64,000 bases of DNA from Halostagnicola kamekurae (GTDB taxonomy: Archaea; Halobacteriota; Halobacteria; Halobacteriales; Natrialbaceae). Positions 47,440 to 63,598 of this stretch are shown here, piece after piece. The DNA is taken from assembly GCF_900116205.1 (NCBI RefSeq), contig NZ_FOZS01000001.1:62001-126000 (forward strand). The letters run 5' to 3'. Position 1 is the stretch's first letter. Each line of letters starts with the position of its first letter. The notes under the pieces are model-generated. The model was not told where the DNA came from, ran no database searches, and saw only the letters and a list, made by a program, of their open reading frames with translations. Both the position numbers and the translations under genes were made by a program.

Positions 47440-47475
47440 AACTATATAGAATAACAAACAATCCTTCGTTTGACT
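47440..47475 (+). promoter_or_regulatory. thsA promoter, ACTATATAG box
   Basis: ACTATATAG at 47441-47449 predicts transcription near 47471, five bases before the ATG at 47476. This supports ATG 47476 over the in-frame TTG at 47470. Confidence 0.6.
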
Positions 47476-49170
47476 ATGGCACAACAGCAGATGGGCAACC
47501 AGCCGATGATCGTACTTTCCGAGGACAGCCAGCGTACCTCCGGAAAAGACGCACAGTCGATGAACATCACGGCCGGGAAAGCCGTCGCGGAATCGGTTCG
47601 CACGACGCTCGGACCGAAAGGGATGGACAAAATGCTCGTCGACTCGACGGGCTCGGTCGTCGTCACCAACGACGGCGTCACCATCCTCTCGGAGATGGAC
47701 ATCGACCACCCGGCGGCCAACATGATCGTCGAGGTCGCCCAGACGCAGGAAGACGAAGTCGGCGACGGCACAACCTCCGCCGTCGTCGTCTCGGGCGAAC
47801 TCCTCAAACGCGCCGAGGAGCTCCTCGACCAGGACATCCACGCGACGACGCTCGCACAGGGGTATCGCCAGGCCGCCGAAGAGGCGACCGAAGCCCTCGA
47901 GGAGATCGCCATCGAAGTCGACGAGGACGACACGGAGGTCCTCGAACAGATCGCCTCGACGGCGATGACCGGAAAGGGCGCCGAGAACGCTCGAGACCTG
48001 CTCTCGGAGCTCGTCGTTCAGGCGGTCCAGACGGTCTCCGACGACGGCGACGTCGATACGGACAACATCAAAGTCGAGAAGGTCGTCGGCGGCTCGATCG
48101 AGAACTCCGAGCTCGTCGAGGGCGTCATCGTCGACAAAGAGCGCGTCTCGGACAACATGCCGTACTTCGCCGAAGACGCCAACGTCGCCATCGTCGACGG
48201 TGCGCTCGAGGTCAAAGAGACCGAAATCGACGCCGAAGTCAACGTCACCGATCCGGATCAGCTCCAGCAGTTCATGGAGCAAGAGGAAGCGCAGCTCGAG
48301 GAGATGGCCACGACGCTCGCGGACGTCGGCGCTGACGTCGTCTTCGTCGACGGCGGCATCGACGACATGGCCCAGCATTACCTCGCACAGGAGGGCATCA
48401 TCGCCGTCCGTCGCGTCAAATCCAGCGACCAGGGTCAGCTTGCTCGCGCGACCGGCGCCTCGCCCGTCACGACCGTCGACGACCTGACCGAGGACGACCT
48501 CGGCTTCGCCGGCAGCGTCGCACAGAAGGACATCGCCGGCGACCAGCGCATCTTCGTCGAGGACGTCGACGACGCGAAGGCCGTCACCCTGATCCTCCGC
48601 GGCGGCACCGAGCACGTCATCGACGAGGTCGACCGCGCCATCGAGGACTCGCTTGGCGTCGTTCAGGCCACCATCGAGGACGGCAAGGTCGTCGCCGGCG
48701 GCGGCGCACCCGAAGTCGAGCTCTCGCTCGCGCTCCGCGACCACGCCGACTCCGTCGGCGGCCGCGAACAGCTCGCGATCGAAGCGTTCGCCGACGCGCT
48801 CGAGGTCGTGCCGCGCACGCTGGCCGAGAACGCTGGTCTCGACCCCATCGACTCGCTGGTCGAACTGCGAAGCGCACACGACGGCGGCGACACGGCCGCC
48901 GGTCTCGACGCCTACACCGGCGACACCATCGACATGGACGCCGAGGGCGTCTACGAGCCGCTTCGCGTGAAGACACAGGCGATCGAATCCGCGACCGAAG
49001 CCGCGGTCATGCTGCTTCGCATCGACGACGTCATCGCCGCTGGCGAACTCAAAGGCGGCGCGCCGGACGACGACGATGACGACGAGATGCCGGCCGGCGG
49101 CCCAGGCGGCCCAGGCGGAATGGGCGGCGGCATGGGCGGCATGGGCGGTGGCATGGGCGGCATGATGTAA
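47476..49170 (+). CDS. thsA: Thermosome subunit (group II chaperonin)
   Basis: A 564-residue chaperonin subunit that assembles into a double-ring folding chamber. Conserved ATP-site motifs are present: [14 protein letters not shown] (about 40-53), GDGTTSAVV (about 92-100) and GGAPEVELS near 410. The C-terminus ends in a Gly-Gly-Met-rich tail ([18 protein letters not shown]), typical of haloarchaeal CCT subunits. A nearly leaderless start and upstream inverted repeats fit a stress-regulated gene. A two-tier hairpin element begins two bases after the stop codon. Confidence 0.97.
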
Positions 49171-49172
49171 AC

Positions 49173-49223
49173 CTAAATTTTGCTCTGCGGGACGGCAAAG
49201 CCGTCCCTCGGCAAAATTTAGTA
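49173..49223 (+). repeat. Repeated two-tier hairpin element, copy 1 (after thsA)
   Basis: The outer arm CTAAATTTTGC (49173-49183) pairs perfectly with GCAAAATTTAG (49211-49221); inside it GGGACGGC (49189-49196) pairs with GCCGTCCC (49200-49207). A conserved CTGCGG follows the left outer arm and CCCTCG precedes the right one; ACAAAAGCAC comes after. Copy 2 lies at 61630-61710. It starts two bases after the thsA stop and may act as terminator or RNA stability element. Confidence 0.7.
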
Positions 49224-49434
49224 CAAAAGCACTCCTCCCTCCGTTCCGAGCGCAAAGCGCTCTCCACATCGGTCGTCGGCCCGTTCGGGCCTGCGGCCCT
49301 CACGGTGAAGTGGAATGGGCTTACAGCCGCATTGTTGGTGAAGCGTACCAAGCGCGGCCCACAACCAACAGCGACCATTTCTTTCGGTGCGCGACTCGTA
49401 TTCCTCCAATCTTTAGTCACAACGCCGACGACAC
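49222..49434. other. Gene-free gap with further hairpins
   Basis: Between copy 1 and the convergent DoxX gene there is no gene. The perfect hairpin GAGCGC-AAA-GCGCTC lies at about 49248-49262, and GGCCCG-TT-CGGGCC a little further on. They follow the AAAAGCAC motif; copy 2 also has a second hairpin in the same place. Confidence 0.5.
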
Positions 49435-49944
49435 TCAGCCGGTTTGGTGGCCGCGACTCGAGTCCGCCGGAACGAACAGTTCCTCGTCGAAGAGATATCG
49501 CTCGAGCGAGCACGCGCCCGGGCCGCTCAGAACGAGCGCGAGCGAGACGAGCGTCAGGACGAGCGTGTACTCGATGCCGCCGTCGCCGGCGACGAACCCG
49601 TAGGGAAGGTGGACGAGCACGGTGGCGACGCTCATGATCACGGCGAGGAGCCCCGCGGCGTATCGGGTGAACAGTCCGACCAGGAGCAAGCCGCCGCCGA
49701 CGAGCTCGACGAGGCCGACGGCCCACGCGAACAGCGTCGGGAAGGGGAGACCGAGTCCCGCGAGTGTTTCAGTGAACCCGGCGATACCGCTCGCTTTCGG
49801 ACCGATACCGAGTACTTTTCCGAGCCCGGAGATGACAAAGACGATTCCCAACGCCAGTCGAAGGACGACGGGATTCCAGCGCGTTCCGGTTCGCTCGAGC
49901 GAATTTCTAGTCGCCATAGCTATCGGTTTGTATTCGAGGGACAT
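49435..49944 (-). CDS. DoxX-family membrane protein, second copy
   Basis: A 169-residue, four-helix protein. The DoxX pattern is VLRLALGIVFVISGLGKVLG and AVGLVELVGGGLLLVGLFTRYAAGLL. It differs from the copy at 34 kb in its N-terminus and loop. A TATA-like GATTATTTC near 49975 predicts transcription near 49949, five bases before the ATG at 49944 (MSLEYKPIAMATRN); the ATG at 49917 is an alternative. The function of haloarchaeal DoxX is not established. Confidence 0.82.
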   Translation of the reverse strand: MSLEYKPIAMATRNSLERTGTRWNPVVLRLALGIVFVISGLGKVLGIGPKASGIAGFTETLAGLGLPFPTLFAWAVGLVELVGGGLLLVGLFTRYAAGLLAVIMSVATVLVHLPYGFVAGDGGIEYTLVLTLVSLALVLSGPGACSLERYLFDEELFVPADSSRGHQTG

Positions 49945-61427: not shown

Positions 61428-61625
61428 ATGGTCCGGAAAAAGAAGTTGAGTCCAAGCGGCGCGAAAGACGATAACGGGAACTATCACAACGTCCATCTCA
61501 ATCTCCACGAGGACGAACTCGAGGTGGCGGGCATGGACATCGGCGACGAGGTCTTCGTCCGCGTTCGAGACGGGAAGATCATCATCCAGAAAGCCGACGA
61601 GGAGGAAGTCGAACACAATTTCTAA
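61428..61625 (+). CDS. Conserved small haloarchaeal protein, possibly AbrB-like fold
   Basis: A 65-residue protein, MVRKKKLSPSGAKDDNGNYH..., with a middle NVHLNLHEDELEVAGMDIGD and an end DEVFVRVRDGKIIIQKADEEE. The last part is like the C-terminal half of a swapped-hairpin AbrB/SpoVT domain, without the usual DNA-binding start. It is small, acidic and looks strongly conserved in composition. The repeated hairpin element begins five bases after its stop. Confidence 0.7.
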   Translation: MVRKKKLSPSGAKDDNGNYHNVHLNLHEDELEVAGMDIGDEVFVRVRDGKIIIQKADEEEVEHNF

Positions 61626-61629
61626 AACC

Positions 61630-61710
61630 GAAGTTTTGCGCTGCGGTCTATCGAATCCGGCCAGCTACCGCTGGCCGGATTCGATGTCCCTCGGCAAAAA
61701 TTCGATTAAA
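61630..61710 (+). repeat. Repeated two-tier hairpin element, copy 2
   Basis: The outer arm GAAGTTTTGC (61630-61639) pairs with GCAAAAATTC (61694-61703) with a single mismatch. Inside, a perfect 16-bp stem at 61650-61665 pairs with 61670-61685 around TACC. CTGCGG after the left arm, CCCTCG before the right one, and AAAAGCAC after the element are the same as in copy 1. It begins five bases after the stop codon of the small-protein gene. Confidence 0.7.
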
Positions 61711-61852
61711 AGCACGGCGTCACCCCCTCAGCCGCGCCGTTGGCGCGGCTTCGAGGGCTCCTTGGCTCGCTCGCTCACTTCGTTCGCTCGCGGGAGAATA
61801 TTGTAGCCTCACCGCATCCAATCAACTGAACGATGCTCAATTCGAGGGGTGC
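61711..61852. other. Gap with a second hairpin, between convergent genes
   Basis: AGCCGCGCC pairs with GGCGCGGCT across GTT at about 61731-61751, within a larger CCCTC...GAGGG pairing. A CTCGCTCACTTCGTTCGCTC-type stretch follows. No gene is present before the pheT 3' end. Confidence 0.5.
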
Positions 61853-63598
61853 TCAGTTCAGCGCCTCGAGATCGAACTCGAACGCCGCGACCGGAACCTC
61901 GAGGTCGTGTTCGACGAGCACCTTCGGATGGAGTTCGCCGATCACGCCGACTTCTTCGCCGTCGATGACGACCGCTGCGGTCCGACCGCCGATGAACGAC
62001 GGGTGTTCGGTCGGCGGCGTCTCGAGGTCTCCGCCGAAGTCCCGGACGAGCGTCTGGAGTCGACCTTTCGCGTCCTCGTAGGCCGCATCGTGGCGTGCGA
62101 GCACGGCACCGACGCTCCGGCGTTCGGCGACGCCCGTGTTCTCCGAGTCGTCGACCTCGGCCGCGAAGCCGATTTCGGCCAGATCCTGGGGATACGAGCG
62201 GTGGGTGTTTCGCTCGAGGACCATCACCAGCGAGGGCAACACCCACGTCCGGAGCATGGTGTAGTCCTCGCTGTAGGGCTCTTTGATCGTGGCGGGCTCG
62301 CCGACGCCGTAGACGGCCTCGTCCGCACTGTCGTCGTCCGACGTCGGAAGCGACAGTCGATCGAAGTTCTCGACCTCGTTGATCATGTGGAAGTTGAGCA
62401 GGTCCTCGAACCCGAGCCCGACGAGACTCCGACGGGTCGCGTCCTCGAGGCGACTGCGCTCGTGCCGCCCGCCGACGGTCCCCGCGTCGGGGTAGCGTGG
62501 CTCGAGTTCGTTGAAGCCGTAGGCCCGCCCGAGGTCGTCGATGAGGTCCATCGGGTGGAGCACGTCGACGCGGTAGGGCGGGATCGTCATCTCGTAGGTG
62601 AGGGAAGCGGCGTCGCTTTCCGCCGTCTCGGCCTCTTCCGTATCGGCCTCGAGACCGGCTCGTTCGGCCAGATCGACGACTTCCTCGGGATCGAGGTCGA
62701 TACCGAGAATCGTCTCGATGCGGTCGTGGGCGACGGTCTTGGTCTCGAGCGAGAGGTCGGGCCGAACGAGTTCGCGATCCGGATACGCGACGGTCACCTC
62801 CTCGATAGTGCCGCCGCGGGCGCTTAACGCATAGCAGATGATCGCGCACATCTTGTCGATCGTCCACTGATCGGTGCCGGTCAGTTCGACGAACAGGTCT
62901 CTCGAGTCGGTCGAGACCTCGGTTCGCCGGCCGTTGATCACCGGCGGGAACGAGAACAGACCGAGTTCGTCGTAAATCGCCGGGTACCGCTCGGTATCAC
63001 GGACGAGGTCGGCGTAGGTTTCGCCGGTTGGGTGCTCGGAGAGCACGTCCGCTGGCGTCATCTCCCGATCTGAATCCAGCGGCACGAACGTATCGCTGTC
63101 GGGGGCGATACCGGTGTAGCGGACGCTCGAGTCGGCCGCTCCCGTCGAGGCGCCCTTGAGCATGGTGAGGTCGTGAATGCCGATCGCGCCCTTCGCGCGC
63201 TTTCGGCCCATCGTCGCGTGGAGCTTCTCCTGTAGCTGGATGAGCGAATCCAGCGCGTCCTCGTCTAGATTCACGCCGCGGACGACCGCGCCCGTGACGT
63301 ACGGGCGCTCGTCGGGGACGCCGTCGTCGACCTCGATGGTCCACTCGGCCGAGTTCGTGTTCGGCACGTAGACGCCCCGGTCGTCGCCGTACTGGTAGCG
63401 AAGCGAACGGGCGACGCCCTCGACCGAAAGCCGATCGAGTCGATCCGGCGCGAACTCGAGTTCGAACTCGTCGTCCTCGGTTCGGCCCTCGAACTCCAGT
63501 CCGAGCGCGAACAGGTCCTCAATCAGGTCGTCGTCGCTCTTTTCGTCGGCGCTGGTTAACTCGCGTAACTCGTCGGGGTCGATTTCGACCGTGGGCAT
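61853..63598 (-). CDS. pheT: Phenylalanyl-tRNA synthetase beta subunit
   Basis: A 581-residue subunit that, with PheS, charges tRNA-Phe. It begins [16 protein letters not shown] and contains the archaeal-type B3/B4 editing domain near 90-270 (GAIGIHDLTMLKG, FPPVINGRRTEVSTDSRDLFVELTGTD) and the catalytic-like domain near 350-500 (PPYRVDVLHPMDLIDDLGRAYGFN). The start ATG at 63598 shares its first base with the pheS TGA (TGATG), so translation is coupled. The longer frame into pheS is not used. Confidence 0.97.
   Translation of the reverse strand: MPTVEIDPDELRELTSADEKSDDDLIEDLFALGLEFEGRTEDDEFELEFAPDRLDRLSVEGVARSLRYQYGDDRGVYVPNTNSAEWTIEVDDGVPDERPYVTGAVVRGVNLDEDALDSLIQLQEKLHATMGRKRAKGAIGIHDLTMLKGASTGAADSSVRYTGIAPDSDTFVPLDSDREMTPADVLSEHPTGETYADLVRDTERYPAIYDELGLFSFPPVINGRRTEVSTDSRDLFVELTGTDQWTIDKMCAIICYALSARGGTIEEVTVAYPDRELVRPDLSLETKTVAHDRIETILGIDLDPEEVVDLAERAGLEADTEEAETAESDAASLTYEMTIPPYRVDVLHPMDLIDDLGRAYGFNELEPRYPDAGTVGGRHERSRLEDATRRSLVGLGFEDLLNFHMINEVENFDRLSLPTSDDDSADEAVYGVGEPATIKEPYSEDYTMLRTWVLPSLVMVLERNTHRSYPQDLAEIGFAAEVDDSENTGVAERRSVGAVLARHDAAYEDAKGRLQTLVRDFGGDLETPPTEHPSFIGGRTAAVVIDGEEVGVIGELHPKVLVEHDLEVPVAAFEFDLEALN

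Follow-up and report, generated by a model that had tools for sequence, protein, structure and literature searches.

Two hairpins of different sequence stand behind two plus-strand genes in the window analysed here, a 64,000-nt stretch of the Halostagnicola kamekurae genome, and they raise the question of whether they are copies of one selected structure and, if so, what kind of element this structure belongs to. The first-pass annotation had described them as a repeated hairpin with co-varying arms, and we reproduced both copies in position and in pairing (Table 1). In copy 1, the outer arms CTAAATTTTGC and GCAAAATTTAG pair at 11 of 11 positions, and the inner stem GGGACGGC/GCCGTCCC (49189–49196/49200–49207) at 8 of 8, around the loop AAA. 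In copy 2, the outer arms GAAGTTTTGC (61630–61639) and GCAAAAATTC pair at 9 of 10 positions, with a single G·A mismatch, and all 16 bp of the inner stem are formed, around the loop TACC. The folding z-scores of copies 1 and 2 are −6.7 and −7.6. Each copy begins 2–4 nt behind a TAA stop codon (49168–49170 and 61623–61625). The word AAAAGCAC follows this first hairpin (H1) in both (49225–49232 in copy 1; in copy 2 it contains position 61710, previously taken as the end of the element), and is itself followed by more hairpins, which bears out the second hairpin noted earlier at each site. The right-hand neighbours are convergent minus-strand ORFs, DoxX-like (ending at 49435) for copy 1 and pheT-like (ending at 61853) for copy 2.

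Table 1. Positions in the window of the two element copies, their modules and the genes in front of them
Feature	Position	Strand	Basis
Thermosome subunit ORF, stop just before copy 1; named from its GGM-rich C-terminus	47470–49170	+	Orthologues in other genera also carry the element
Copy 1, module H1: arms 49173–49183/49211–49221, internal loop TCTGC/TCG, loop AAA	49171–49223	+	Match to model R1, 2.2e-12
Copy 1, shared linker AAAAGCACTCCTCCCTCC and 5′ side of H2	49225–49243	+	Word common to most copies
Copy 1, variable hairpin H2, GAGCGC-AAA-GCGCTC	49248–49262	+	Sequence
Copy 1, shared TCGGTCGTCGGCCC; its third base G co-varies with the C of CTCCTCC(C)TCC in related copies	49269–49282	+	
Copy 1, hairpin H3, CCGT-TC-GGGCC-TGC-GGCCC-TC-ACGG-T; right end of the recognisable element	49281–49306	+	Sequence; H3 also in other copies
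65-aa ORF, stop just before copy 2; weak SymE/AbrB-like match below the Pfam cut-off	61428–61625	+	Element at orthologous genes in four genomes
Copy 2, module H1, long class: arms 61629–61639/61694–61704, inner stem 61650–61665/61670–61685, internal loop TCT/GT	61628–61707	+	Match to model R1, 6.7e-7
Copy 2, downstream part: AAAAGCAC 61708–61715, variant second hairpin 61723–61738/61742–61757, H3-like GCTCGCTCGC..GCTCGCGG to about 61794	61708–61794	+	Sequence

An exact search for the right-hand core CCCTCGGCAAAA gave just two matches in the window and four in the whole 4.1-Mb genome, where its reversed control has no match. The H1 model found four strong copies in this genome, each a complete hairpin right behind a gene: a thermosome subunit, the 65-aa protein, an EngB-like GTPase and an AsnC/Lrp-type regulator (the thermosome and EngB names rest on the sequences of these genes). 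Three weaker model matches (E 0.05–0.23), one of them the reverse strand of a strong copy, were left uncounted. Two weak matches with identical scores (E 0.23; L160/L161, G000:C1:374019–374086 and 374178–374245) lie 159 bases apart and are perhaps a tandem repeat. Two related elements (L166, G000:C4:326336; L167, G000:C10:41223) lack CTGCGG and retain AAAACGTTGATGAAAATCACTCCTC and GTCGTCGGCCCG; L167 is interrupted by a short insert with the ends GGCTCTGGTGAATCGCC/GCGATTCACCAGAGCC, flanked on both sides by a GTGATGAA repeat.

The pattern CTGCGG-N8-38-CCTCGGCAAAA was present in 84 of the 125 genomes of the family, with almost no matches for reversed controls. A covariance-model search (R1), as the first-pass annotation had proposed, yielded further copies genome-wide and in other haloarchaea: across the order, where up to 13 matches were counted per genome, 168 of 392 genomes carry the element, with at least eight families represented, and fuller scoring of seven copy-rich genomes gave 13–25 copies in each. 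Among the named carriers are Natrinema, Haloterrigena, Natronococcus, Natrialba, Halovivax, Halopiger and Halostagnicola, as well as Halegenticoccus, Haloprofundus, Halobellus, Haloferax profundi, Halonotius and Halobacterium. Bacterial records gave five exact matches to the pattern (L074, L083, L102, L124, L154), which from their sequence were judged probable chance or coding matches. Haloarchaeal GC-rich spacers are full of hairpins, and two of them might have come to resemble each other fortuitously. This explanation is refuted, and we give it practically no credence: window shuffles put the chance expectation at zero, and both the spread across the family and the covariation described below speak against it. 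No element was found in IMG/VR, and no Rfam family matched above its gathering score, permissive scans returning only chance hairpin-like matches far below the cut-off. A literature search over open-access titles and abstracts found none describing the element. We conclude that these sequences belong to an apparently undescribed family of mosaic palindromic elements in haloarchaea.

Two copies alone gave little basis for covariation; the 138–207 copies now available support it. The core of H1 is a conserved duplex with an internal loop (TTTTGC-n-CTGC/TCG-GCAAAA) bearing a variable stem, and its left end reads (A)CC.AA.TTTTGC in 138 copies. Because columns were anchored on this fixed core, no alignment was fitted to the fold. 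The outer-arm pair L-4/R+4 shows standard pairing in 96% of 138 copies and takes all four Watson-Crick types (GC 79, AT 18, TA 16, CG 13). When 22 copies were aligned with plain MAFFT, pairing was seen in 98.5% of cells, compared with 81.6% in shuffles. Relatedness alone can beat shuffles without any structure; a control that retains relatedness, in which partners were slid within the same alignment, paired at 51% at most. The inner stem is nearly free in sequence and fixed in geometry: among 201 copies, 146 have a stem of 8 or 9 bp and 143 a triloop. In some copies it is replaced by a long-class stem like that of copy 2. The invariance of TTTTGC, CTGCGG and CCTCGGCAAAA is partly ascertainment, since the searches fixed these words, and TTTTAC/GTAAAA variants, which also pair, are present at the EngB-like locus. 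Collectively, the covariation across copies supports the earlier proposal of a selected, or actively maintained, structure: the pairing of H1 is preserved through sequence change. The R+1 and R+8 bases of the right arm (49217 and 49224 in copy 1) are also coupled (C-G 43, A-T 19, G-C 18, T-A 17, yet T-C 20 and T-T 15), and no simple hairpin pairs them. Two known motifs considered for the internal loop were dropped by eye, a bulge-helix-bulge recognised by the splicing endonuclease (no 3-4-3 geometry) and a kink-turn (no tandem G·A).

The hairpin first noticed does recur, but as one module of something larger: H1 is only the left part of a mosaic of about 150–300 nt. It is followed by AAAAGCACTCCTCC(Y)TCC, hairpin H2, (R)GTCGTCGGCCCGCTCG, hairpin H3 and CGCGGT, often then by GCCTGCCCTYCCCCG and a fourth hairpin, and the Y and R of H2 co-vary (C-G 44, T-A 44, mixed 8). 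Optional hairpin modules are inserted or swapped among copies; the variant second hairpin of copy 2, for instance, recurs at another conserved locus (L018, L019, L062). One optional insert, of two hairpins, can part the 3′ outer arm from H1, and a second insertion site lies between AAAAGC and ACTCCTCC. In 13 copies bearing the two-hairpin insert, the 3′ arm, though displaced, still fits the 5′ arm of the same copy (CGAAC/CTTCG, CAAAC/CTTTG, CGAAA/TTTCG), which argues that the outer helix is a structure and not merely a local palindrome.

To place the element relative to genes, we called genes around 207 copies with a codon log-likelihood coding model. An upstream gene in sense was found for 155 of 195 copies, about a fifth of copies having none, and in 140 of 164 sense-linked copies the distance between outer arm and stop codon is −4 to +7 nt, in agreement with the placement noted for the two window copies. 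At the core genes shared by several genera, copies follow the stop codon at 0–4 nt. Antisense genes starting within 8 nt of that same end numbered only two. The convergent downstream gene, true of both window copies, did not generalise (89 convergent, 66 co-directional). When two copies share one spacer they are head-to-head in all nine cases, at distances of 265–463 nt; at seven of the nine sites both copies lie behind a convergent gene of their own. Host genes recur across genera. Those identified with Pfam encode the DNA polymerase II large and small subunits, ribosomal L10e/L16, eIF-1A, a TFIIS-like zinc-ribbon protein, TbsP, AsnC/Lrp and a GTPase; gyrase B, PAN, NusA, PurF and thermosome were named solely from C-terminal sequences. 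The stop-codon proximity, the nine head-to-head pairs and the same core genes across genera support the reading that we tentatively prefer, though it falls a little short of an even chance: a mosaic palindromic, REP/BIME-like intergenic element of Halobacteria that may act as a transcription-unit boundary or 3′-end element. The covariation of outer arm, inner stem and H2, the outer helix kept across the insert and the tight geometry support it as well.

A minority of copies is antisense or lies beside the start of a leftward gene, and others stand alone at unrelated loci and on plasmids; both placements weaken the case for a transcription-unit boundary. At one conserved locus (L018, L019, L035, L062, L080, L089, L133) the element is antisense between two leftward genes and ends 25–40 nt from the start of the left gene, adjoining its likely promoter. 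Stand-alone copies L060, L061, L065, L067, L079, L118, L122, L134 and L137 and the plasmid loci L295–L298 start with GT.ACTACA.GTGCA.ACCGAAC. Some stand-alone copies have partly complementary ends, as in L060 (GGTAACTACAG/CTGTACTTACC), and ARAGORN and Rfam searches of stand-alone loci returned no tRNA and no known ncRNA. Such copies may represent a MITE or, alternatively, a small RNA gene.

Selection on a sense RNA should tolerate G-U more than A-C. On the sense strand, G-U and A-C numbered 8 and 15 in the inner stem, 9 and 27 in the outer arm, and 3 and 5 in the H2 pair, and triloops were found alongside their reverse complements (GGA/TCC 16/17, GAA/TTC 23/38). With no G-U preference and loops in both orientations, a palindrome at the DNA level fits at least as well, and the RNA-level role implied by the first-pass annotation was not borne out. 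These counts favour maintenance that would operate on DNA, as a hairpin or cruciform or through templated repair and conversion, or that would have no strand preference. Mismatches are few, and variation in the pairs is mostly exchange between G-C and C-G, which never involves a G-U intermediate; the counts are also compatible with an RNA role. The missing sense-strand G-U excess weakens a boundary function too, and it counts against another explanation, in which a protein-bound RNA structure in the 3′ UTR controls the stability or processing of housekeeping mRNAs and the stand-alone copies are small RNA genes. The sense orientation behind stops, the fixed internal loop with its sequence-free stem and an AT-rich, promoter-like stretch some 25 nt upstream of several stand-alone copies (seen by eye only) speak for such an RNA; we nevertheless consider it improbable, given the G-U and loop counts, the antisense placements at conserved loci and the lack of an Rfam family.

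Orthologous sites revealed rapid turnover. Behind the EngB-like gene, close species differ in outer arms, inner stems and inserts; in others this position holds decayed remnants or nothing while the C-terminus of the protein is unchanged, and in a member of another family (G129) the outer arms alone are retained. Many orthologous genes have no element, which is therefore dispensable there, and this weakens the assignment to transcription-unit ends. Copies at different genes are somewhat more alike within a genome than between genomes (inner identity 0.698 versus 0.646, outer identity 0.706 versus 0.576), as expected from exchange between copies or recent spread. Six copies, of which five directly follow a stop codon, have a residual left arm between the neighbouring sequence and a full element. 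Three copies (L112, L214, L023) are nested half copies, with a left strand up to CTGCGG and then a complete new element; this looks like recombination of one element into another.

The main and close rival of a boundary element is a selfish or neutral REP- or MITE-like palindrome that spreads or recombines, and that lies behind stops only since insertion is tolerated there. We regard this as a real possibility. Several observations agree with it: the element is present or absent at orthologous genes whose protein C-terminus does not change, remnants of older left arms are nested behind stops, many loci hold stand-alone copies whose ends are partly complementary, loops are strand-symmetric and G-U shows no excess. 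Bacterial REPs likewise lie behind, and even supply, stop codons (PMC3733652). It accounts less well for the same position retained across genera, with one remnant across families, for pairing in nearly all cells of the 22-copy alignment, and for a stop-codon distance far tighter than free insertion into spacers would give; nor was a partner transposase identified when Y1 was tested.

A Y1 transposase is the partner of many bacterial REPs. This transposase (PF01797) is absent from the copy-rich genomes G023, G024, G025, G028, G031 and G061, and mobilisation by IS200/RAYT-type enzymes is unsupported, several of the copy-richest genomes being without it; the lack of association counts in favour of a boundary role. 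Like bacterial REP/BIME sequences, including the GTAG and CGTC families, the element is a short imperfect palindrome with conserved mismatches and a variable stem, intergenic and repeated in the genome, behind coding regions and beside stop codons, and it forms inverted dimers and composite mosaics with extra modules (PMC3733652). Unlike them, it is archaeal, its dimers are 265–463 nt apart, it retains the same host genes across genera, and it reaches 4–25 copies per genome rather than hundreds (4 here, 13–25 in copy-rich genomes); PMC2817692 puts REPs at usually over 100 copies per genome. Inspection of element ends showed no GTAG or CGTC tag. Because tag, copy number and transposase all differ, we use the term REP/BIME-like for the element and do not class it among the REPs. 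It shares palindromic ends, presence/absence variation and some stand-alone copies with partly complementary termini with MITEs and IS200/IS605 ends, whereas gene-linked copies have no terminal repeats or target duplications visible by eye. In Haloferax volcanii, T stretches are the main intergenic terminators and hairpins are reported near some sites (PMC7237163), a setting that supports a boundary function. Our element resembles those terminators in lying behind genes with T tracts, and differs in being a large structured mosaic with a fixed internal loop; its T tracts are just four bases long and followed by GC, which weakens that function.

If the element does mark the end of transcription units, H1 would be extruded in DNA, formed in the nascent transcript, or both; the hairpin and the T4 tracts on both strands would limit read-through or protect the 3′ end, and a putative protein could plausibly read the conserved internal loop. 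Exchange of stems and modules between copies would then give fast sequence change with a lasting fold and position. A wider version, which we hold to be doubtful, is a class-wide archaeal boundary system in which a dedicated putative protein recognises the duplex and internal loop behind the stops of core genes and the genome re-supplies intact hairpins by module exchange; if true, archaea would have evolved, independently, a functional counterpart of BIMEs. An element acting at transcription-unit ends would place a portable structured 3′-boundary module on core genes, among them those for the thermosome and the replicative polymerase, where little but short T tracts had been known, while a selfish one would be a family of palindromic repeats lacking the transposase to which REPs are usually attributed. 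In both cases, several hundred naturally occurring variants of a single hairpin, set in fixed gene contexts, allow direct comparison of structure, position and expression, including comparison of close species that differ in having the element at a given gene.
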